Below are positions 5,797 to 26,568 of a stretch of 35,176 nt of DNA, piece after piece. A program made the translations under genes and the position numbers. The DNA comes from Candidatus Taylorbacteria bacterium RIFCSPLOWO2_01_FULL_45_34b (GTDB lineage: Bacteria > Patescibacteriota > Minisyncoccia > Phycocordibacterales > DSPV01). The DNA lies in assembly GCA_001822675.1 (NCBI GenBank), contig MHRY01000032.1, positions 1-35,176 on the forward strand, written 5' to 3'. The notes under the pieces were generated by a model. The model searched no databases. It had not been told where the DNA came from and worked only from the letters and a program-made list of their open reading frames with translations. Within the stretch, counting starts at the first letter, position 1. Every line of letters starts with the position of its first letter.

Positions 5797-8013
5797 TTAC
5801 ATAACTCCTTCTCCCTCCGGTGGCGGAGTTTCCGGGGTGGGGTTTGCCCCAAAAACTTCGCGCGGTTTCGCTCCCTCACCCTTGCCGATTAACCCTTTTT
5901 TCTCAAGAAGGTCAATCAATCTTGCCGCTCTAGCATATCCGATCCGAAGACGCCGTTGAAGATAGGAAGTTGACGCTTTGCCCGCTTTCAGAATCTCTTC
6001 TTTAGCTTCTTCGTAGAGATCATCGTCGTCACCTGGATCTTCGTCAAAAGACGATTCGAAAATAGAATTTTTCTCCGGAGTGTCTCCCAGGGTGATTTCA
6101 CTCGGTAGTTCATCTCTATACGCATCGTGCAGAAATTTCACCACTTTCTTAACTTCCGTTTCTGAAATAAAAGCGGATTGGATTCGGCTCGGCTGGGACA
6201 TTTCTCCAGAAAGATAGAGCATGTCGCCCGCGCCGAGCAGTTTTTCGGCGCCGCTGCCATCCAAAATAGTTCGTGAGTCTATTTGCGACGCTACCTGAAG
6301 GGCAAGACGGGCAGGAATGTTAGCCTTGATAAGGCCGGTGATGACGTTCACGCTCGGCCGCTGGGTTGAGAGGATGAGATGGATACCAACCGCTCGGCTC
6401 ATCTGCGCGAGACGGACGATTGCCGCTTCCAGTTCTCGCGGGTAAGTGGCCATAATGTCCGCCAACTCATCAATAATAATGACAATGTACGGCATTGTTT
6501 CAGGGAGTTTGCTTGCTTCTTCCCGCATCATTTTTCCTTCGAACCGTTTTCGCGCGGGCGTAGCGATATTTTTGTGGTATGACTCGATGTCACGTACGGA
6601 TTCACTCTCGAGAATGTCATAGCGCCGGTCCATTTCTTTAGCGGCCCATTTGAGAGCCATGATGACTTTCTTAGCGTCGGTGATAACAGGGGTAAGGAGA
6701 TGGGGGATTTTGTTGTAGAGGGTCAATTCAACGCGCTTCGGATCGATCATGATGAAGCGAAGATCTTCTGGGGAGTTTCGATAGAGAAGGGAAGTTATGA
6801 TGGCATGAATAGTTACCGATTTTCCGGAGCCCGTTGCTCCCGCGATAAGCAGGTGGGGCATTTTTGCTAAATTGCCGAAATATGATTTTCCCGAAACTCC
6901 TTTTCCAAGCGATACAAGTAAGGATTTTTCAGAGTTCTGGAATTCGTCAGAAGAGAGGAGAGTTGCTAATCCAACTGTGGTTTTAATACTGTTTGGAATT
7001 TCAATGCCAACGAGTGACTTTCCCGGTATCGGCGCTTCGATGCGAATTGGGTGGGCGGCCAAAGCTAGAGCTAAATCATTCTGAAGTCCGACAATTCGCG
7101 AAAGTTTCACCCCTTCAGCGGGCTTTAGTGCGTAACGAGTTACTGATGGTCCGATTGAAACTTCATCCATTTCGACTTCAATGCCGAAGTTTTGGAGCGT
7201 CCTTTTTATAATGTTAAGGTTGGCTTTGATATCGCCAACTCCCGGTTTGCCACGGTCTCCTTCAAGAATTGAGAGCGGAATTGGAACAAAAGGCAAAAGA
7301 CTTGCTGATTTTCTGGTTAGAAACGCGAAATTCCCCTCATCGGCTCCAGCTTGTTTAAGAGACGACATACCTTTTATTTTCGGCGGAATTTCTTCCGACT
7401 CTTCTTTAGGAGTTTCCGCTCCTGCATCTTCTTCAGAGCCGCCTTCTTCTATGAGAGAGGAATCTTTCTCGTCTATGAGTGTCGTTTCTACTACACCCGC
7501 CTCTTTTTTACCAGAAATTAATTTTTGCCAAAGAATTTTGAAAGGACGGAGGGTAAGAGGACTATCCAATATGACCAAAAGTGAGATCACAATGGTTGCG
7601 AAAAGGAATATAAGCGAAGCTTCTTTGTCAAAAAGTCGGACGAGAGGAAAAGAGATCCATTTACCAACAACACCCCCTCTTTCGTCGGAGAGCATATTGA
7701 TAACACCTAAACTGGAAAGGAAAAAGGCGATTGCACCAATTGCTCGAGCGATGGAAAATTTCTTCCCCAAAGATTTAAAAGATGAGATGCCAAGAATCGC
7801 GAAAAGAAAGGGAAGGACGAAGTATCCAATTCCCATAAAATACTTCAAAACGGTATAAACCCTATCACCAACGACCCCCGCTTTTCCCAACGAGGAAAGA
7901 ATAAAAAAGAATGTGAGTACAAAAAAAACGATTCCTAAAATACCCTGAAGAGTTTCTTCTTTGAGGTAGCGTGACAATGTTTTTTCTTTTGTTTTTTTAA
8001 AACGTTTGGCCAT
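5797..8013 (-). CDS. ftsK: DNA translocase FtsK/SpoIIIE
   Basis: Four TM segments, Walker A GATGSGKSV, C-terminal gamma winged helix STSYLQRRLRIGYARAARLIDLLEKKGLIG. Confidence 0.96.
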   Translation of the reverse strand: MAKRFKKTKEKTLSRYLKEETLQGILGIVFFVLTFFFILSSLGKAGVVGDRVYTVLKYFMGIGYFVLPFLFAILGISSFKSLGKKFSIARAIGAIAFFLSSLGVINMLSDERGGVVGKWISFPLVRLFDKEASLIFLFATIVISLLVILDSPLTLRPFKILWQKLISGKKEAGVVETTLIDEKDSSLIEEGGSEEDAGAETPKEESEEIPPKIKGMSSLKQAGADEGNFAFLTRKSASLLPFVPIPLSILEGDRGKPGVGDIKANLNIIKRTLQNFGIEVEMDEVSIGPSVTRYALKPAEGVKLSRIVGLQNDLALALAAHPIRIEAPIPGKSLVGIEIPNSIKTTVGLATLLSSDEFQNSEKSLLVSLGKGVSGKSYFGNLAKMPHLLIAGATGSGKSVTIHAIITSLLYRNSPEDLRFIMIDPKRVELTLYNKIPHLLTPVITDAKKVIMALKWAAKEMDRRYDILESESVRDIESYHKNIATPARKRFEGKMMREEASKLPETMPYIVIIIDELADIMATYPRELEAAIVRLAQMSRAVGIHLILSTQRPSVNVITGLIKANIPARLALQVASQIDSRTILDGSGAEKLLGAGDMLYLSGEMSQPSRIQSAFISETEVKKVVKFLHDAYRDELPSEITLGDTPEKNSIFESSFDEDPGDDDDLYEEAKEEILKAGKASTSYLQRRLRIGYARAARLIDLLEKKGLIGKGEGAKPREVFGANPTPETPPPEGEGVM

Positions 8014-8410: not shown

Positions 8411-9300
8411 TAAAGGACAATTTAAATAAACTATTCCTTTAATCTTTATACATAAAGGACAGTATAAAACTATAAAAATAAGTAAATGGTAGGAAAAGAG
8501 ACAAAAGACATTATGTCCTTTAGAAAAGGACAAGTCGGAGAGATGCTCGCCCTGGGTAATTTTTTTGAAGAAGACCCTACTTTAATATATAGTTTTAGGA
8601 AATGTGAAAAAATTTCATCAGCAATATATTTAGTTACAAATTTATTACCAGAGAATGATCCCATACGTCAGTCCTTAAGAGATTTGTCTCTTAAGATTAT
8701 ATCTGTATTTTTGGATATTAAAAAAAATACCCCACGGGAGTTTCTTGTTGGGCATTTCGTGTCTCTTATCGTCGAAATTCGTTCACTTCTAACGATTGCT
8801 TACACAGGGGGGCTTTTTTCAGAGATGAACTTTTCTATTTTGAGAAGAGAGTTAACTACTATTGCCCAAATATTTGAAAAGGTCGCCCTATCGGGAGGGA
8901 ATGGATCAAAGAGATATGAGCTGACCCCAGAAAATCTAGCTGTACCCATGGAGACCGCTCCTGCAAGAAAAAAAGAAATTCGAAAAGAGGAAGATGCCCA
9001 TAAAGGACATGTTGCAAAGGACAATGAGGCAGATAAAGATAAGGACAGACACACCGGTAATATAAAGGACAGTCGGAAGAACATCATACTGAACTTGCTA
9101 AAAAGCGGCAGTAAGCTCACAGTGAAGGATTTCTCCAAAATCATTACTGGTTGCAGTGAAAAGACAATTCAACGGGAGTTACTTTCCTTGGTTTCTCTTA
9201 ATGTCCTTAAGAAAGATGGAGAAAAACGCTGGAGTCGTTATTTTCTAATATTAGAAAATCAGGCTTAATTAAGGTTAACGAAACATTGGTAATGTCCTTT
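8411..9300. promoter_or_regulatory. Cluster of AAGGACA / TGTCCTT motifs (candidate operators)
   Basis: Copies at about 8412, 8453, 8514-8532 (inverted pair tgtccttt-aga-aaaggaca), 9001, 9016, 9039, 9063, 9202 (reverse), 9292 (reverse). Confidence 0.6.
8486..9268 (+). CDS. Putative transcriptional regulator: helical N-terminal domain, charged linker, C-terminal HTH
   Basis: C-terminal NIILNLLKSGSKLTVKDFSKIITGCSEKTIQRELLSLVSLNVLKKDGEKRWSRYF resembles a DeoR-type winged helix. Confidence 0.75.
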   Translation: MVGKETKDIMSFRKGQVGEMLALGNFFEEDPTLIYSFRKCEKISSAIYLVTNLLPENDPIRQSLRDLSLKIISVFLDIKKNTPREFLVGHFVSLIVEIRSLLTIAYTGGLFSEMNFSILRRELTTIAQIFEKVALSGGNGSKRYELTPENLAVPMETAPARKKEIRKEEDAHKGHVAKDNEADKDKDRHTGNIKDSRKNIILNLLKSGSKLTVKDFSKIITGCSEKTIQRELLSLVSLNVLKKDGEKRWSRYFLILENQA

Positions 9301-10233
9301 AGAAGGAATTTTATCTTGGCTTTTGACGATCTGCCACGTTTGGTATACAGAAGCCTCTTTAACTCGGTCTGAAACTCACATTTTGTGTTTTTGTTGATAA
9401 ATTAGGAGTAAAAATGGGGTACTGTTGTCTAGATACAGCCAAGTTACAAGCTTAATTGACTTTTTATGGACGCTATGCGAGTATGGCCACGGGGGTAATT
9501 TTTATAGAGGAATCAAAGAATTAGAAAAGGTAAATTTCCTTTGCTGGACAATGGTTTTTATGAGAGTTATCCACACGTTTTCTTTTACAGAGTATTTCGT
9601 TATGGTCTATAATGACCTTGTTGGTAGTGCTTTCGGAGCATTTTTCTTTGTTGTGCTACCTACAAAAACAAACTTATTCTGAATCGCTGTTTAGCGTTAC
9701 CGTTGTCTGTAAAAGAAAAAGCCCTTTGAAAATTAAATATCGGTTTGTATTTTTTATCACCGGATTTTTTCTGCCTCGTTATTAAGTTTGAAATCATGTA
9801 TGTTTATACATTAATGTAGAACAGAAATGATTCCATTTTTGTTAAGATTCTTCTGGAAAGAAAAAGTGGAGGTGTACGTCTTCTGTATTTGGTTGTTGGT
9901 AGCAATGAATAGTGATAAAAATTAAAAGTATAGAATCAAAAATTTTCTGTTTATCTTTTTCCTAACTTTGTCCGCCGCGCAGAACTTCGGATCAAATTTT
10001 ATCAGCTAATCCCGTTATCTTTGTGTCGATTAAAATAAAGTGGCGGGAATAGTGGTATTCATAATCGAGAAAGTAAAACTTTCAGATTATATGATTAATA
10101 ACCGTGAGCGAATTATTTTTACGTCGTGTAAATTAATTTGCTCATACAAATAATTTTTGTCTCGTCATTATTAAAAATGATTATTAATTAATTTTAAGCG
10201 AAGCAAAAATTATTAAAAAATTAGAAATTAGTT

Positions 10234-13200
10234 ATGAGTATTTCAAAAAAATCTAAGACAATACGAGTTGTCGCAGGTTTGTTGGGATTCGCGATGGCGT
10301 TTAGCCTTTCGTTCGGAGTAGTTACTCCAAGTGCATCGGCCGCCACCATTGAAGAGCTTACCGCTCAAATCAACAGCTTGCTTTCAACTATTGCTTCATT
10401 GCAAGCCCAACTTAGCGGAATGCAAGGAGGTTCATCCTCTGTCGGAGCGTACGTTTTTGCTGCCAACCTTACCGTTGGAAGCAAAGGCCAAGATGTTATG
10501 AACCTTCAAAAGGTTTTGAACATGAGCGCTGACACACAAGTTGCCTCGGGCGGATCCGCTGGTTCACCGGGAAATGAAACTTCATTCTTCGGTCCAGCCA
10601 CCAAGGCCGCTGTGATTAAATTCCAAATAAAAAATGGAATTTCTCCAGTCGCTGGATATGTTGGCCCAATCACCAGAGCTAAACTAAATAGCATGGGTGG
10701 CACAGTTGTTGTTCCTCCAGGGGTAACTCCTCCTCCAGCCCCAGCCGGTACTGGTCTCACTGTGTCTTCACCGACCCAGCCAGCGGGATCGCTCGCACCG
10801 CAAAGCGCGGCACGGGTTCCATTCACTAAAATTACCGTGACTGCTGGAAGCGATGGCGATGTCATCTTAAACAGTGTTACGGTTCAACGCGGTGGTTTGG
10901 CCCAAGACGCGGTCTTTGGCGGTATCGTCCTCTTGAACGAAAATGGTCTTCAACTTGGTATTGCAAAGACGCTTAATTCCAATCACCAAGCAGTGATCGG
11001 CGAGGCCGTCACGATTCCTCGCGGCACTTCCAAGACCTTTACGGTTGCTGGCAACATGGCCGCATCGCTCTCGGCTTACGCTGGCCAGGTAGCAAACATT
11101 TCAGTTGTTGGAGTCAATACTGCGGCAGTGGTTTCCGGTTCGCTTCCGATTGTCGGCGCGTCGCATACCATCAACTCTTCGCTCTCTATCGGTTCAGTTA
11201 CGACCGAAAGAGCATCACTTCAACCGACTACGGCTGTGAACAAGGAAGTTGGAACTACTGGTTTCACCTTCTCTCAATTCAAAGTAACAGCTGGTTCAGT
11301 AGAAAATGTTCGCGTTCATTCAGTTCGTTGGAATCAGGCTTCTTCAGCTGGCTCCGCCGATCTTGCGAATGTCGTGACAGTTGTTAGCGGTGTTGAGTAT
11401 CCGACGACCATTTCGGCCGACGGCAAATACTACAGCACTGTTTTCCCAGGAGGGCTTCTTATTGAGAAAGGACTCTTTAAGGAAATTTCCATCAAAGCCG
11501 ACGTGGCAGGTGGTTCAGGCCGCACCATTAACTTTGGTGTTGAGAAAACGACCGACCTCTATATTATCGGCGAGACCTATGGTTATGGTATAACTCCGCC
11601 TTCAACTGGCACTGGTTTCACTTCTGGCACCATCTGGTATCCAGCGCAAACCATTACCGTTGCCAACGGTTCTATTACTGTAGAGAAAGCTCTAGCCGTT
11701 CCAGCCCAAAACATCGCTCCGAACCTTGGGAATCAAGTGCTCGGTGGCTACACGGTTGAGATCAAGGGTGAGCCGATTACCGTGGCATCTCATGTATTCT
11801 CATTCGCTACGACTGGCACCAAAACTGCTGGCTCTAGCGCTCAAATCACGCAAGTAACGATTGTTGATGAAAATGGTTCAGTGATAGCCGGTCCGGTTGA
11901 CGAGGTTGATACCACCGGAGATGTTACCTTCACCGACACCGTTCTCTATCCAATCGGTAAAAAGACATATACATTCAAAGGTAAAGTTGGTCCGGGTTTC
12001 GGCGCCGATGGCACAGTTATTCTTTCCACCACTCCGTCAACAAACTGGACGACTGTTACCGGCCAAGTGACCGGCAAAACCATCACTCCGAGTTCGGCGG
12101 CGGTTACCATGAGCACCATCACGGTTAAGAGCGCAGCTCTTACCATTAGCGTCTCTTCCAACCCGGCGGCTCAAACCATCGTCGCTGGCGCGCAAGATTT
12201 CATCTTCGCTAACGTTCTCCTGGACGCGACTGCTTCCGGCGAGGATATGACGATGAGTTCCGTTCCGCTTGATTACGAACTCGTGACTGGTTCAACCGAC
12301 CTTACTTCCTGCAACCTATTCAACGGTTCCACCCAACTTACTTCTGGCACAAACACTGTCAATCCTTCGGGAGACGACAATAGTTTGAACTTCACGCTTG
12401 ATTCGACTCTGACCATTCCAAAGGGCACAGTTACAACTCTTACGGTCAAGTGTAATATCCCATCTTCAATCACTTCCGGCGCGCATTCATTCGGTTACAA
12501 CAGCGCTTCCACTCCGACCATAACCGGCAAGACTTCTGGTCAATCGGTTACACCAACGGAGAATACTGGCGCGGGTCAGACAATTACAGAAACGACTGGC
12601 GGAACGATTGCTGTAGCTCTTGATTCATCCAGTCCGTCTTACAGCATTGCCGCGGCTGGCACGGCTGGAAATGTCGCTTCAGTTCTTCGCTTTACTACGA
12701 CCAACGAAGCGATTAAGTTGACCGAAGTGGCGTTGGTACTTACTCAAGTTGCTGGTAATGCTTCCAGCTCTCCGGACGATGTTACCAAAGTTACTCTTTG
12801 GGACGGCGTGACGAAAGTTGGCGAGAGCATTTTCACCGGTGGAAGCTACTACGCTTCAACCACGATCGGTTCTTGCGCGGGCTGCTCTGACTTTATTGTG
12901 CCGAAAGATGCCGACAAAGTTATGACTGTCAAAGTTGATCTTGGTGAGCAGGGCATTTCGCAAGTTGGTACTCCAGGCGCCTTTATTAGGGTTGACTGGG
13001 ACGGTGGCAACAACGGCGCGCCGAATAACATAGGAGGCGTTAAGGGTGTTGGCCAATCAAGCGGTACCACTATCTCCGCTAACGGCACTGACACCGCTTC
13101 CTCTGGTTTCCGAGTCTTCAAGTCTTACCCAACAGTGGAAATTGTTCCGCTTTCAGATACGAAGCTCGTAGCCGGCAGGAGAGACCTCTTCAAGTTTAAG

Positions 13201-13803
13201 GTTACAGCGTCAACTAAAGGCGATGTCGGTATTCACCGATTGTCATTCACGATCGCGACCTCATCCGCCACCCAGCAAATTGACATGATTGACGCTCTTA
13301 ACGTCTATGGCTTTACCGATTCGGCTTACTCGACTCCGGTTTCTGGAGTGCAGACAGACGGAGCCCTCGGCTACGTTAACAAGGATCTCACTCTGGCTTG
13401 GGCAAGCGCGTCTTCAATTCTCCGAATTCACGCGGAAACCACAGGCAACGCTTCTACGACCCTTGTGATTCCCGCCGGCACCACCCGATACTTCACGCTT
13501 AGAGGTGATGTAACGCTTGCAGGTACGACCTACAGCGTGTCCTCTGCCCTCCAAGGTGACCAGAAGTTTGAATCAGGTGTTAGCCCGATTCCCCACAATG
13601 TTGCCGGCGCATCCACGTCTTACCTCTCGTCAACAACCTACTTCTTGACGGTAAGTAATGTGGCCAGCGACTTTATCTGGAGACCTTATTCAACGACTAC
13701 AACCAACTCTGCCGCAACACTTGACTACGATGACTTCGCGAACGGTTACGGCGTGCCAGGGTTGCCGTCAACGAATACTAACAGTCAGATTCTTAGCAAC
13801 TAA
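10234..13803 (+). CDS. Large secreted protein with signal peptide, peptidoglycan-binding domain and repeated beta-sandwich-like regions (S-layer-like)
   Basis: N-terminal hydrophobic signal, LTVGSKGQDVMNLQKVLN...FFGPATKAAVIKFQIKNGISPVAGYVGPITRAKLN (PG_binding_1-like), Thr/Ser-rich remainder. Confidence 0.8.
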   Translation: MSISKKSKTIRVVAGLLGFAMAFSLSFGVVTPSASAATIEELTAQINSLLSTIASLQAQLSGMQGGSSSVGAYVFAANLTVGSKGQDVMNLQKVLNMSADTQVASGGSAGSPGNETSFFGPATKAAVIKFQIKNGISPVAGYVGPITRAKLNSMGGTVVVPPGVTPPPAPAGTGLTVSSPTQPAGSLAPQSAARVPFTKITVTAGSDGDVILNSVTVQRGGLAQDAVFGGIVLLNENGLQLGIAKTLNSNHQAVIGEAVTIPRGTSKTFTVAGNMAASLSAYAGQVANISVVGVNTAAVVSGSLPIVGASHTINSSLSIGSVTTERASLQPTTAVNKEVGTTGFTFSQFKVTAGSVENVRVHSVRWNQASSAGSADLANVVTVVSGVEYPTTISADGKYYSTVFPGGLLIEKGLFKEISIKADVAGGSGRTINFGVEKTTDLYIIGETYGYGITPPSTGTGFTSGTIWYPAQTITVANGSITVEKALAVPAQNIAPNLGNQVLGGYTVEIKGEPITVASHVFSFATTGTKTAGSSAQITQVTIVDENGSVIAGPVDEVDTTGDVTFTDTVLYPIGKKTYTFKGKVGPGFGADGTVILSTTPSTNWTTVTGQVTGKTITPSSAAVTMSTITVKSAALTISVSSNPAAQTIVAGAQDFIFANVLLDATASGEDMTMSSVPLDYELVTGSTDLTSCNLFNGSTQLTSGTNTVNPSGDDNSLNFTLDSTLTIPKGTVTTLTVKCNIPSSITSGAHSFGYNSASTPTITGKTSGQSVTPTENTGAGQTITETTGGTIAVALDSSSPSYSIAAAGTAGNVASVLRFTTTNEAIKLTEVALVLTQVAGNASSSPDDVTKVTLWDGVTKVGESIFTGGSYYASTTIGSCAGCSDFIVPKDADKVMTVKVDLGEQGISQVGTPGAFIRVDWDGGNNGAPNNIGGVKGVGQSSGTTISANGTDTASSGFRVFKSYPTVEIVPLSDTKLVAGRRDLFKFKVTASTKGDVGIHRLSFTIATSSATQQIDMIDALNVYGFTDSAYSTPVSGVQTDGALGYVNKDLTLAWASASSILRIHAETTGNASTTLVIPAGTTRYFTLRGDVTLAGTTYSVSSALQGDQKFESGVSPIPHNVAGASTSYLSSTTYFLTVSNVASDFIWRPYSTTTTNSAATLDYDDFANGYGVPGLPSTNTNSQILSN

Positions 13804-21080: not shown

Positions 21081-21299
21081 GCGGAATGACAGGTAAGTTA
21101 AAGTAAAAAAGTAAGAAAAAACATGTGTGGTTTTCAAATTTCCTAATAGGAATTTGAAGGGCGTATGGTGGATGCCTTGACTCCAAAAGGCGATGAAGGA
21201 CGCGAGCTGGCGGCGATACGCTTCGGGGAGGTGCCTAGCAACCTTTGATCCGGAGATGTCCGAATGGGGAAACCCCTCGTGCTTTGCACGAGACGTGCG

Positions 21300-21420
21300 C
21301 AGCACAGAGTGCGACACCAATCCACGAATTCATGCGAATGACGCGAATGGAAGAAGTTTATTCGTGTTATTCGTCCCCAATTCGTAATTAGTGTCGTGTT
21401 CCGCGCTGCGCGCGAGCGCA
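21300..21420 (+). repeat. IVS1: insertion in 23S domain I, related to the 18082-18123 intergenic repeat (opposite strand)
   Basis: ttcgtgttattcgtccccaattcgtaattagtgtcgtgt versus the reverse complement of acacggcacgaattacgaatgaggaacgaataacacgaa. Confidence 0.65.
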
Positions 21421-21510
21421 CCCAGGGAAGTAAAACATTTCAGTACCTGGTGGAAAATAGAACAATAGTTATTTCCTAAGTAGCGGCGAGCGAAAAGGAA
21501 AGAGCCCAAA

Positions 21511-21603
21511 CCGAACTCTAAATTTTAATTTCAAGGATCCCAAGGTTCGACCTTGGATCTGAAGAAAGGTCGAACCTTGTTGAAATTAAAATTTAGAGTT
21601 CGG
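21511..21603 (+). repeat. IVS2: long stem carrying the AAGGTTCGACCTTGGATC hairpin repeat
   Basis: Stem ccgaactctaaattttaatttcaa / ttgaaattaaaatttagagttcgg around aaggttcgaccttggatctgaagaaaggtcgaacctt. Confidence 0.9.
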
Positions 21604-21817
21604 GGTTGTAAGGTAGCAACGTCGTTTTTTATTAAACGAGAAGAGTTACAAAATATGTTGTTAACTGAAAGAGCTGGAAAGCTCTACCCAAGGAGGTAAT
21701 AGTCCTGTAAGTGAAAATAACATATCTCTTTTGTTGCTATTCTTGAGTACCTCGAGACACGAATGGCTCGGGGGAATCTGCCGGAACTAACCGGTAAGGC
21801 TAAATACTTTTGGAGAT

Positions 21818-21854
<37 letters not shown>

Positions 21855-21913
21855 CAGCCCGGTAAGGGCGGTGAAATAGACCTGAAACCATATGCCTACA
21901 AGGAGTCAGAGCG

Positions 21914-22068
21914 GGCAGCACATTGAGTACAATGTGAGTTTTCAATTTACAATTTTTAATTTTCAAATAATTTTCAATTTCTTAATGTTTAAAAATTAAG
22001 TCATTGATACATTCATTGAAAATTGGAAATTGATAATTTTAAATTTGCATCGCGCTTAGCGTGCTGTC
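21914..22068 (+). repeat. IVS3: copy 2 of the 20924-21080 element inserted in 23S
   Basis: ggcagcacattgagtacaatgtgag...gcatcgcgcttagcgtgctgtc; end stem GCAGCAC/GTGCTGT. Confidence 0.9.
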
Positions 22069-22178
22069 CGTCATGGCGTGCCTATTGAAGAATGAGCCAA
22101 CGAGTTGATCTAGACGGCGCAGGCTAAGCCCCAATAAAGGGTGGAGCCATAGGGAAACCGAGTGTGAATAGCGCGCCT

Positions 22179-22283
22179 GCCCGCCCAACTTTATCCCAGA
22201 ACACTTGAGCAGTGATAAATGAAATTTTTAAGTACAAAACTTCTTTTAACATAATCAGATTTTCGGTGATAAAGTTGGGCGGG
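22179..22283 (+). repeat. IVS4: ~105-nt element, paralogue of IVS5
   Basis: gcccgcccaactttat...gataaagttgggcgggt; roughly 90% identical to 22560-22664 by eye. Confidence 0.9.
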
Positions 22284-22559
22284 TGAAGTCGTATAGATCA
22301 GACCCGAAGCCAAGTGAGCTTGCCCTGGGCAGGGTGAACTCTCGAGAAATCGAGAGGAAGGCCCGAACTGGTTAGCCGTGCAATACTATCGGATGACCTG
22401 GGGTAAGAAGTGAAAAGCTAATCGAACTTGGTAATAGCTGGTTCTCTCCGAAATAGCTTTTGGGCTAGCGTCGTGTGTTTCTTCTGGGGGTAGAGCACTG
22501 GAAGGTCTCGACAGGTCGAAAGATCGCGAAACCTATCAAACTCCGAATACCAGAAGCTT

Positions 22560-22664
22560 GCCCGCTCAACTTTATTCCCGAACATTTGAGAAGTGATAAA
22601 TGAAAATTTTATGTACAAAACTTCTTTTAACACAATCAGATTTTCGGTGATAAAGTTGGGCGGG
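22560..22664 (+). repeat. IVS5: ~105-nt element, at the helix 38 (A-site finger) region
   Basis: gcccgctcaactttatt...gataaagttgggcgggt inserted after gaataccagaagctt. Confidence 0.88.
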
Positions 22665-22904
22665 TGAATAGCGCGGCAGTTAGACGGTGGGGGCTAAGCT
22701 CCACTCGTCAAAAGGGAAACAGCCCTTGATCTCCAGTTAAGGTCCCTAAATCTATGCTAAGTGCATCACAAGGTGGTGGAGTTTCGAAGACAATGAGGAG
22801 GTAGGCTTAGAAGCAGCCATCCTTTAAAGATAGCGTAACAGCTCACTTATTAAGAAATTCTGCGCCGAAGATAATCGGGGCTAAGCATAGTACCGAAACT
22901 GAGG

Positions 22905-23045
22905 GCTTGAAAACTTCATTGAGGATTTGTTCTTTAATTATTTTTGGTGACAATCTAATAGCATAATGGAAATGCGTCTCATGTAAGTGGGGAGAAGTGG
23001 GATCGAAACCCACGTGATTGTCACCTCCTCAATGAAGTTTTCAAG
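22905..23045 (+). other. IVS6: 20-bp perfect stem enclosing a tRNA-like fold
   Basis: cttgaaaacttcattgagga / tcctcaatgaagttttcaag; interior 22946-23025 has D-arm-like and T-arm-like hairpins. Confidence 0.75.
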
Positions 23046-23718
23046 CGGTAGGAGAGTATTCCAATCTGCTGTGAAGGAGAAGGGGTGACCCACTCTGGAG
23101 CGTTTGGAAGTAAGAATGTTGGCACAAGTAACCACAATTCCAGTGAGAAACTGGAACACCGAAAGACCAAGGTTTCCCTCTCAATGATTGTCAGAGAGGG
23201 GTTAGTCGGGCCTAAGCCGATGGTGAAAACCGTAGGCGATGGACACACGGTTAATATTCCGTGACTTTTGTAAAATGCGATGGGAGGACGGAGTCTAGTA
23301 TACGAAGCGCATTATTGGATTTGCGTTTGTAGCGTGAGGACGGATCCTAGGTAAATCCGGGGTCCTGCATTTAATTGCGATTCCAAGCGAAGCGAAAATT
23401 CGGAGATTCGTCGAAGGAAATTTCGTAAAGCGGGCTTCCAAGAAAATTCTCTAAGCATAATTTTACAAAAACCGTACCGCACACCGACACAGGTGGTCAG
23501 CTCGAGTAGAGCAAGGTGAACGAGTGAAGGTTCTCCAAGGAACTCGGCAAAAAAGTGGCCGTACCTTCGGTATAAGGCCTGCCCCGCCGCAAGGCTGGGG
23601 CCGCAGCTAAAGTATGCCTGGCGACTGTTTATCAAAAACACAGCTCCCTGCGAACTCGTAAGAGGATGTATAGGGGGTGACACTTGACCAATGCCAGAAG
23701 GTCAAACAACGATGTTGT

Positions 23719-23802
23719 GAGCATCACTTTGATTTCAAGAATTTAAGGTTCGACCTTGGATCTTAAAAAAGATCGAACCTTGTTGAAATTAAAGTGATGC
23801 TC
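23719..23802 (+). repeat. IVS7: second hairpin-repeat insertion, at the helix 68 tip
   Basis: Stem gagcatcacttt / aaagtgatgctc around aaggttcgaccttggatcttaaaaaagatcgaacctt. Confidence 0.9.
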
Positions 23803-23824
23803 ATGGTGATTGTTGTAAGCCCTG

Positions 23825-23859
<35 letters not shown>

Positions 23860-24067
23860 TCGCAACATTTTATTTTAAAGTGTTGCGGATGATTAGGACT
23901 GTTACGTTCGGAGTTTATGATAAACGTTAAATCAATACACTAATAAAAAAGCTACCTCTCCATGCCGTAAGGCGTGGATGATCAAGTAACACGGCTCATA
24001 TGAGAGGCCATACGCCGTGATTCCATTTGCGTGGAATAAGATATGGTCCTTCTTCGGGGAATAGAAG
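23860..24067 (+). other. Intron A, ORF-less group I-like intron at ~L1931
   Basis: ggtcctaaggt|...gaatagaag|agcgaaattcc; U before the 5' site, G at the 3' end, S-like aagatatggtcc. Confidence 0.7.
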
Positions 24068-24396
24068 AGCGAAATTCCTTGTCGGGTAAGTTCCGACGCG
24101 CACGAATAGTGTAACGACTGGGCAACTGTCTCGGAGAACAGCTCGGTGAAAATACAATACCGGTGAAGATGCCGGTTACCTGCAGTTAGACGAAAAGACC
24201 CTAGAAGCTTTACTACAACTTGATAGTGAAACTATGTTTTGTCTGCGTAGCGTAGACGGTAGACTTTGAAGTTTATCTTTCGGGATAGATGGAGTCGACG
24301 ATGAAACACCGTTCTTTCGAAATATATTTTCTAACCCCGACGGCAAAAACGACGGGGGACACTATCTGGCGGGTAGTTTTAGTGGGGCGCTATCCT

Positions 24397-25021
24397 TGGG
24401 GACGCAGAACTATGCGGAACGAACGCGGAACACGCGGAAGTCCGAATTGTTTGTGTCTCCAAACTATGGCGCCTCCGGAAGTTTTATCCACTTCAAAACA
24501 AATAAATTATAGGGGGACTTTCGCGAGTAATCGCGATCGAAAAGTTAACTATATGCTGGAAAATCTGGTGTAGCCAGAACTACTTGGTTTTGATATAATA
24601 GTTTTTGTTATAAATTAACCTAATTATTATGCCAAATCCAAGTGAAAAAGTTCATGGTGCAGACAACCAGCAGGAAGATCTTGAAACTATAAAATCAAAA
24701 ATGTTAGAACACATAGGTGTTCTAGAAAACTATCTATTACTTCTAAAAGATGAAGTGAGTATAGGTAAATCAGATAAGCATATGGATAGACATCAGATGA
24801 AGGAAGTTGATCAAAAATTATTACAGTTCAAGAGTGATTTAGATAGTACAATGGAACAAATTCTCAATGAATCAAAAAGAGAAAGATCTTCCTCAGAGAC
24901 TAAACGTTAACCGTCCATGAAAATGGATGATGATATAGTCCGATCTTCACGGCGACGTGAAGAGACAAGCAGAAATGACTTGTCCACTTGGAGGCGAGGC
25001 CTCCAAGTTGCAACAGACTTG
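24397..25021 (+). other. Intron B, group I-like intron at ~L2262 with a 93-aa ORF
   Basis: ggggcgctatcct|...acttg|cctaaagagtaacgg; S-like gatgatatagtcc. Confidence 0.72.
24629..24910 (+). CDS. Intron-encoded helical protein, unknown function, no homing-endonuclease motif
   Basis: 93 aa MPNPSEKVHGADNQQEDLETIKSKMLEHIG...; gatataat box about 30 nt upstream. Confidence 0.6.
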   Translation: MPNPSEKVHGADNQQEDLETIKSKMLEHIGVLENYLLLLKDEVSIGKSDKHMDRHQMKEVDQKLLQFKSDLDSTMEQILNESKRERSSSETKR

Positions 25022-25262
25022 CCTAAAGAGTAACGGAGGAGTCCATTAAGGTTCTCTAGGCGCGAATGGAAACCGTGCCGATAGTGCAATGGCATAAGAG
25101 AGCTTAACTGTGAGGCGTACGTGCCAAACAGACGCGAAAGCGGGGCATAGTGAACCGACGGTCCGTGTTAGAGGCGGCCGGAGATTATCGGATAAAAGCT
25201 ACTCTAGGGATAACAGGCTAGTTCCGCCTAAGAGTCCATATCGACGGCGGAGTTCGGCACCT

Positions 25263-25678
25263 CAATTCGGGGCGCCATGCGAGAAATCGCATTAGCACTT
25301 TTGGCACAAACATAGGAGTTGAACCCTTTGTGTCAGAATTAAAATATTGGCTTATAACGGTGGAACCCGTACTAGTAAAGTACGTGCGGGCAATACCGTG
25401 GGAAGTTTTTCTTGCACTGAAAGAAGGTAGACAAAGAGCTCTTTGAGAAGTACAGCCACCTTGGCAGTGGTTCTGGTGCAACTCCAGGCATGTCTACCAA
25501 GCGAATTTGTTAGTTCAGATTCGCGCCTTCTTTCAGTGCAGGATAAACCCTGTAGAGACTTGACCATTTTGGTCGGAGTCCAGAATACATTTCTGGGCTA
25601 ACACGCCAACTCCTCATCCGCCTTAGGCGGGAAGGAAGAAGATATAGTCCATACCATTAGTAATAATGGAGAAGTATA
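25263..25678 (+). other. Intron C, group I-like intron at ~L2500 (peptidyl-transferase centre)
   Basis: ggcacct|caattcgg...aagtata|cgatgtcggctc; gaagatatagtcc and tgtagagact. Confidence 0.75.
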
Positions 25679-25712
25679 CGATGTCGGCTCAACATATCCT
25701 GGAGGTGGAGAA

Positions 25713-26568
25713 AACATACCTTCTCTCTCCGACGGAAACGTCGGAGTAACCTGCCCGCTATTGCCATATTTTTGTAATACGCGGTGTAAGGGACTCGTTT
25801 GCCTAAGACAAAATTATTTCATTTTGAAATCAATAGCTTTGGCAGGCGGGTTAAACAAGCTCAATACGGTGGAGGCTTATTCATGTGACCTACGAAGTTT
25901 CTCGCAGGTCCCAGGTGTAGTATAATTACACACATGAAGGCTAGCGCCGTAGGAAAGATATGTGTTGAAGCAAAGCGAGCATATCTCGCGGGTTTCGTTG
26001 ACGGCGATGGTTGCATAATGGCAACAATTGAGCGTCACAGCGAGAAAAAATTCGGTTTTCGAGTACGGGTTGAAATAAAAATCACTCAGAAAGAAAATCG
26101 GGTACTAAAAGATCTTGCTCGAGAGTTAAAGGTGGGCTGTGTAAGCTCGAATAGGGCTGGCACAGAGTACACAACGCATGATTGGATTATTAGAGATAAA
26201 AATCATGCGAAATATATTCTCGAGTACATTCAGCCTTATAGTAGACTGAAAAAAAATCAAATTACGATTGCGCTTAAAATTTTAAAAAGAGCAATCATAA
26301 CAAAACAAGATCTTCTAAAAAATGCTTATCTTGCGGATACATTGTCTCGGTTTAACGTTAGATCCAAAAATCGGCGTAAAAACTTTGTGACAATGATCAA
26401 AACACATGTCTCCTCTAACGACTGATTGCTATAATTTTGGTATAGCATGAGATATGTCCGCTTCGGCGGAGTATCACACGGCTTGCACCTAATTCTTCTT
26501 TGGCGACAAGGAACGAAACGGTGATGGAATAGTCTGATCCTCGCGGTAACGCGAGATAACAAATAAGA
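25713..26568 (+). other. Intron D, group I-like intron at ~L2533/2534 with a LAGLIDADG ORF
   Basis: ctggaggtggagaa|...|gcttccaaggg (junction may shift by 1 nt); ggaatagtctgatcc; homing-endonuclease ORF inside. Confidence 0.72.
25934..26425 (+). CDS. LAGLIDADG homing endonuclease, single motif
   Basis: RAYLAGFVDGDGCIMATIERHSEKKFGFRVRVEIKITQKENRVLKDLARELKVG... Confidence 0.92.
   Translation: MKASAVGKICVEAKRAYLAGFVDGDGCIMATIERHSEKKFGFRVRVEIKITQKENRVLKDLARELKVGCVSSNRAGTEYTTHDWIIRDKNHAKYILEYIQPYSRLKKNQITIALKILKRAIITKQDLLKNAYLADTLSRFNVRSKNRRKNFVTMIKTHVSSND

Follow-up and report, generated by a model that had tools for sequence, protein, structure and literature searches.

A motif array shared by a conserved regulator gene and the predicted chromosomal origin in an order of Patescibacteria: evidence for a putative origin regulator

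Motif copies in and around the regulator gene

The locus described here raises the question of why a short DNA motif is repeated so densely within and around a single gene, and which protein reads it. The window (i.e. the whole stretch of 35,176 nucleotides that was analysed) is one contig, C32, of a 777,556-base genome in 50 contigs. Twelve exact copies of AAGGACA were found in this 35-kb window and 10 of these fall between positions 8411 and 9300, seven starting on the forward strand (8413, 8455, 8526, 9003, 9017, 9041, and 9065) and three on the reverse strand (8514, 9202, and 9293). The initial annotation had put the number at about ten in 0.9 kb on both strands; 10 were counted, against a chance level of 0.18 for this 890-bp stretch (sd 0.43, maximum 3, from 2,000 dinucleotide-preserving local shuffles).

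The copies lie in and around an open reading frame for a 260-aa protein, the putative origin regulator (8486..9268, forward strand), which is taken to be real because orthologues were detected in 58 of 60 relatives. Upstream of its start codon, two copies have the form TAAAGGACA (8411..8419 and 8453..8461, both forward, with PWM scores of 17.2 and 15.4 bits). The gene start carries an inverted pair, TGTCCTTT-AGA-AAAGGACA (8514..8532; 18.0 and 11.7 bits), exactly as it had been described from the sequence. The four direct forward copies from 9003 to 9065 occupy 9001..9071, in DNA coding for a disordered linker, a reverse-strand AAGGACA (9202..9208; 15.4 bits) lies within the winged-helix coding region, and a last TAAAGGACA, also on the reverse strand, is located immediately 3′ of the gene (9293..9301; 18.3 bits). 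The two reading frames claimed for the motif were both recovered: AAA-GGA-CAA at 8525 and AAA-GGA-CAT at 9002 encode KGQ and KGH, and KDN, KDR, and KDS come from the copies at 9017, 9041, and 9065, in which the codons are AAG-GAC. The palindrome at 8514-8532 was also considered as the key conserved operator; support was lacking, in that divergent pairs with starts 10-11 bp apart are rare among the orthologues.

Absence of the motif around orthologues had been named as an outcome that would refute the initial interpretation, and this outcome did not occur, the motif being present at all 30 orthologues. In an enrichment run without a preselected motif, AAAGGACA emerged as the most enriched 8-mer of the 30 orthologue loci (107 copies vs 3.3 expected) and was found in exact form in 27 of them. 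A PWM with the consensus T(A/C)TAAA(G/A)GACA detected 8-19 sites in every one of the 30 orthologue genes with 200 bp on either side (~1.2 kb); in the whole genome of one relative (G006, 981,549 bp) it detected 398 sites, i.e. 0.4 per kb. As a caveat, the PWM was trained on the orthologue and cca loci (see below), the loci in which sites were afterwards counted.

Could the copies be due to chance, or to a codon-driven KGH/KD peptide repeat in a low-complexity linker? The in-frame copies are indeed concentrated in the disordered linker, which is tolerant of repeats. Synonymous-codon shuffles of the 30 orthologues, however, yielded only 17.2 ± 3.7 copies (27 at most in 300 shuffles), whereas 83 were seen, and the same excess was evident for the cca genes (42 copies vs 9.4 ± 2.7) and for the window gene taken alone (5 vs 0.9). 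Because the shuffles yield far fewer copies than seen, selection acts on the DNA, in line with the earlier proposal that conservation is at the DNA and not at the peptide level. Copies in the orthologue genes were spread over KGH/KGQ (32), xKD (36), and RT (4) frames and the reverse strand (11). Copies are also found outside coding DNA and on either strand, and each of the 30 orthologues has them, as does cca. The shuffles rule out a codon or peptide artefact, and we give this explanation practically no credence.

A second array at cca, the predicted chromosomal origin

In the window's genome, AAAGGACA occurs 45 times vs 37 times for the reversed control, and 20 of the 45 copies lie in two clusters, one at the regulator gene and the other at 8813-11668 of contig C40, a region that carries cca (PolyA_pol, tRNA-nucleotidyltransferase) and yraN/UPF0102. 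With these counts, a DNA uptake sequence, i.e. hundreds of dispersed copies, was rejected. Pairs of AAAGGACA at most 30 nt apart were found in 39 of 60 relatives (more than 100 pairs, compared with 7 when the control was the reversed motif); most of the pairs lie in the regulator gene or in or near cca. At the cca loci, too, AAAGGACA is the top 8-mer (105 vs 2.6 expected); it is absent from the dnaA (10 loci) and parB control loci. Pooled over the 26 genomes with mapped cca, motif density ranged from 0.55 to 1.8 per kb in the 1-kb bins between -2 and +3 kb, counted from the cca polymerase domain, and was ~0.05-0.1 per kb in most bins beyond 4 kb. Clusters of at least three PWM sites occur at only four places in G006: two at the regulator gene, one at cca, and one 5 kb from cca.

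The cca region is predicted to be the chromosomal origin on the basis of GC skew, DnaA boxes, and parS. In G006, which is complete in a single contig, cumulative GC skew calculated around the circle reaches a minimum at 82 kb, shallow across 70-98 kb, and a maximum at 492 kb; cca is at 83.1 kb. Of the 18 TTATCCACA boxes in this genome, four are located at 82.9-84.8 kb, and just two parS-like sites in the genome have at most two mismatches, at 84.0 and 85.2 kb. The skew of G052 displays a clear minimum at cca, that of G007 is consistent with such a minimum, that of G053 weakly so, and that of G018 uninformative; in G039, no skew flip was detected within the 80 kb examined around cca. Throughout the 26 genomes, motif copies are concentrated within ~2-3 kb of cca, as are DnaA boxes and sites resembling parS. 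All 26 genomes contain dnaA, at a distance of about 7-52 kb from cca where both share a contig. A survey of Patescibacteria takes dnaA as origin marker (PMC12102498); with the predicted origin at cca, this marker would be off by tens of kilobases here.

As to the G039 stretch (contig C2, 81001-161000), the skew is positive on both sides of cca even though none of the three kinds of site (motif, DnaA box, parS-like) is missing; an inversion or misassembly is possible. Palindromes resembling parS (TGTTTCACGTGAAACA and relatives) were noted in or near yraN and cca, both on contig C40 (locus L063, 6263-6655) and at the cca loci, where CGTGAAAC occurs 48 times vs 0.5 expected. Replacement of ParB by the 260-aa protein was considered and discarded, a separate ParB being found in 24 of the 26 genomes. 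Nor does the protein qualify as a member of a ParB-parS system, since no ParB_N domain was matched in the 260-aa protein and the separate ParB has its own parS-like sites at cca.

Motif copies and DnaA boxes are arranged in recurrent ways around cca. Downstream of the gene, composites have the form AAAGGACA-tgt-AAAGGACA-(2-4 nt)-TGTGGATAA-TGTCCTTT. Relative to the DnaA box, motif starts peak at -12/-11/-10 and -23/-22 on one strand and at +10 on the other, which amounts to helical phasing, and at 13 of the 44 DnaA boxes near cca AAAGGACA ends 2-5 nt ahead of the box. Direct repeats are spaced 9-13 bp and ~21-24 bp start-to-start. Upstream of cca lies a 35-bp element, TGTGGATAAcTcTGTGgATATGTGTATAAARGACA (in G052, TGTGGATAACTCAGTGGATATGTGTATAAAGGACA), in which the motif overlaps the DnaA-like TGTGTATAA. 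The arrangement TGTGGATAA-N(4-14)-TGTGTATAAARGACA was detected in 25 of 117 genomes of the order, once in each and with gaps of 11 or 12 only; the corresponding control had no match in the 117 genomes. The predicted origin thus laid out looks bipartite, with cca between its two parts.

From the array in the window, the initial annotation had suggested either a regulator acting on its own gene or a site of nucleoprotein nucleation. The presence of the motif at the orthologues supports this suggestion, and the array at cca requires its purely local scope to be revised: with a second array at the predicted origin, the sites point to a regulator that binds there as well as at its own gene.

The protein, its neighbours, and its link to the motif

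The 29 orthologues that were aligned share 27-36% identity with the 260-aa protein over the aligned full length. Conservation is strongest in the C-terminal winged helix (CSEKTIQRELLSLV...GERRWSxYSL) and in the N-terminal helical domain, and the linker between them is variable. An AlphaFold2 model of the single chain (mean pLDDT 80.9) predicts a four-helix bundle (residues ~31-136), a disordered linker (~137-188, with pLDDT below 50 at residues 166-170 and 175-188), and a winged helix (~189-254). The latter is predicted to be DeoR-like: 15 of 30 members match HTH_DeoR at E≤0.01 (best 1.1e-7), the window protein itself not passing the cut-off. The likeness to DeoR-type and Penicillinase_R winged helices concerns this C-terminal DNA-binding domain; unlike in DeoR, no sugar-phosphate sensor domain was detected, and the winged helix is C-terminal instead of N-terminal. 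The N-terminal domain has its fold in common with S23/Avd proteins (PDB 2gsc, 2rld, 4dwl, 8ub7; Foldseek prob 1.00, TM(target) ~0.8), but identity is ~8-16%, the best E only 1.8e-3, and the solved chains, of ~107-122 residues, are without a winged helix. S23/Avd proteins form pentamers, and we know of no origin-binding role for them. The PHROG 'replication initiation protein' was weakly matched by 3 of the 30 members only (best E 7e-4).

In the window, the regulator gene has two conserved neighbours: the divergent ftsK upstream (5797..8013, reverse; Pfam FtsK_SpoIIIE 1.5e-63) and, downstream, a gene for an S-layer-like surface protein with a peptidoglycan-binding domain (10234..13803, forward; Pfam PG_binding_1 1.6e-6). 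The ten orthologue loci for which ORFs were listed likewise have an ftsK-like ORF divergent upstream and a secreted-looking surface-protein ORF downstream, as judged from translations inspected by eye, Pfam being applied to the window's neighbours only. Some 300 bp beyond the 3′ end of the regulator gene comes a DnaA box with the gene's orientation, GTTATCCACA (9566..9575, forward), which is kept 3′ of most orthologues. It is followed by a TATAAT -10-like element (9608..9613, forward) which, from the anchored orthologue listing, is the putative promoter of the surface-protein gene at 10234. At most orthologue loci, this box precedes a TTTTGC-like plus TATAAT promoter ahead of the S-layer-like gene, and DnaA may control that gene through the box. 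Elsewhere in the window, in the region 21149-26425, the 23S rRNA match covers 4180 bp vs a 2925-position model, and a LAGLIDADG endonuclease ORF is located at 25934-26425; insertions or introns are probably present in this rRNA.

When 290 genomes from across the phylum were sampled, each of the 12 genomes of the order, the window's own included, had a full-length orthologue. Outside the order, protein matches were weak and mostly restricted to the winged helix, except for one strong match (G253). Motif pairs were detected in 9 of the 11 relatives from the order, in none of 11 genomes from other orders of the class, and in 14 of 278 genomes outside the order, which is not above the reversed control. 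Full-length protein and arrays have a common taxonomic range, a single order. The two arrays are also related in composition: in a comparison of 26 genomes, the proportion of A-type sites (AAAAGACA) in the regulator-gene array correlates with that in the cca array (r=0.60, permutation P=0.0008), also when GC is taken into account (partial r=0.61, P=0.0012, n=23). These values are uncorrected for shared ancestry, so that independence is overstated by related species. That two unlinked arrays covary in variant preference suggests one reader.

The strong match in G253 (contig C65, locus L235), a genome listed outside the order and 86% complete, is full-length and accompanied by sites of AACGGACA type; possibly, it reflects a contaminating contig or a transfer. 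Among named relatives, a contig search with the single protein gave matches only in Giovannonibacteria MFHL01000026.1 and Sungiibacteriota JACPBG010000001.1, where the gene regions contain 4.3 and 2.9 PWM sites per kb, respectively.

Motif pairs were additionally found before large secreted-looking surface-protein genes in eight genomes (G016, G018, G020, G035, G041, G051, G053, and G057; loci L257, L259, L261, L262, L266, L267, L270, and L272), several of them adjoining a valyl-tRNA-synthetase-like gene. Both gene names rest on inspected translations only, and no cluster of at least three PWM sites was seen at a surface-protein gene in G006. These pairs at surface-protein promoters point to a role that is not purely replicative.

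A proposed limiter of initiation and its alternatives

The arrays, their conservation, the selection on DNA, the co-location with the predicted origin, the geometry relative to DnaA boxes, and the co-variation of the arrays are established as properties of the sequences. What they mean has to be inferred. We consider it quite probable that the 260-aa protein binds T(A/C)TAAA(G/A)GACA at its own gene and at the predicted cca origin and limits initiation, although no binding data are at hand. The gene would then probably encode a previously undescribed protein controlling both itself and the start of chromosome replication. In that case it would be the 260-aa protein itself that recognises the motif, with TATAAAGGACAT and TATAAAAGACA as its predicted DNA targets. 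The four-helix bundle would probably oligomerise, and several winged helices, on long and flexible linkers, could reach sites that are irregular in spacing and mixed in orientation. Bound to the array of its own gene, the protein may bring about autoregulation and possibly titration of spare protein; bound to the cca array, where sites are next to DnaA boxes at helical spacing and in one element overlap a DnaA-like box, it may modulate how DnaA assembles there. Competition with DnaA is favoured by the upstream element, in which the motif and that DnaA-like box overlap, and most likely initiation would be limited by competition at the overlapped box, the protein level being held constant through autoregulation. 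The adjacent composite downstream of cca could equally be cooperative with DnaA. Whether the protein activates or represses cannot be read from sequence, and its role as a limiter is an inference.

Proteins of this functional kind are known from other bacteria. CtrA of Caulobacter, Spo0A of Bacillus subtilis, AdpA of Streptomyces, and HP1021 of Helicobacter pylori have origin sites that overlap or adjoin DnaA sites, compete with DnaA, and also control other genes (PMC4285127). Here, likewise, one motif copy and a DnaA-like box overlap, and surface-protein promoters carry sites in some of the genomes; conserved motif sites in a predicted origin and their adjoining or overlapping of DnaA boxes, two features of origin-binding regulators, are both present. 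In contrast to these four proteins, the 260-aa protein combines a four-helix bundle with a winged helix, no receiver or AraC-type domain was detected in it, the motif is different, and the predicted origin flanks cca, in Patescibacteria.

A parallel in layout is offered by RctB of Vibrio chromosome 2 and by iteron plasmid Rep proteins, whose origins combine short repeats about one helical turn apart with a DnaA box and parS, and which have sites at their own gene (PMC6090056). The 260-aa protein might accordingly be an iteron-type initiator or a positive co-initiator, as RctB or plasmid Rep are, instead of a limiter of DnaA. The direct repeats at the predicted origin, with both spacings, the inverted pair at the protein's own gene, and the single-gene autoregulatory layout agree with such a role. 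RctB, however, initiates a secondary chromosome, whereas the main chromosome is concerned here, with dnaA in all 26 genomes and an origin that contains multiple DnaA boxes of consensus sequence; nor was any RctB or Rep similarity in sequence or fold seen among the listed matches of the PDB sequence and fold searches. We regard this role as rather unlikely. Still less likely, in our estimation, is that another DNA-binding protein, with a function in segregation, nucleoid organisation, or SMC loading, reads the motif and that the window gene is merely a target. The array does occur together with parS sites near the origin, and motif pairs are found at surface-protein promoters as well, but the densest and most conserved array sits in the gene for a predicted DNA-binding protein, protein and arrays are common to one order, the variants at cca covary with those in the gene's own array, and the ParB that is present has sites of its own.

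We attach similarly little weight to an ordinary transcription factor that represses itself, cca/yraN, and surface-protein genes, its closeness to the origin being incidental and due to cca. A DeoR-like winged helix, sites upstream of the protein's own start codon, and the third class of sites at surface-protein promoters would suit such a factor. It would not account for the fixed helical spacing to DnaA boxes and the overlap with them, nor for sites that lie within both coding regions and on both sides of cca without a focus on promoters.

A limiter of initiation that binds at its own gene and at the cca origin therefore remains our preferred reading. A wider role is conceivable, in which the protein would act as a clade-specific master regulator of the patescibacterial life cycle that ties together initiation at the bipartite origin, its own level, and large surface proteins, with feedback from DnaA on the S-layer-like gene by way of a promoter with a DnaA box; we put this forward tentatively and hold it to be more doubtful than not. 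If true, the surface proteins under its control may serve host contact. No description of this motif, this protein, or this origin was found in the open-access literature searched, and neither the architecture of the protein nor an origin laid out around cca came up there; the functional kind, i.e. origin-binding regulators, is already known. Replication control in CPR/Patescibacteria is essentially unstudied. The present analysis defines, at the sequence level, the predicted origin for a large CPR order, at a distance from dnaA that amounts to tens of kilobases in the majority of the genomes checked, and it provides a candidate new family of origin regulators with a predicted binding site.
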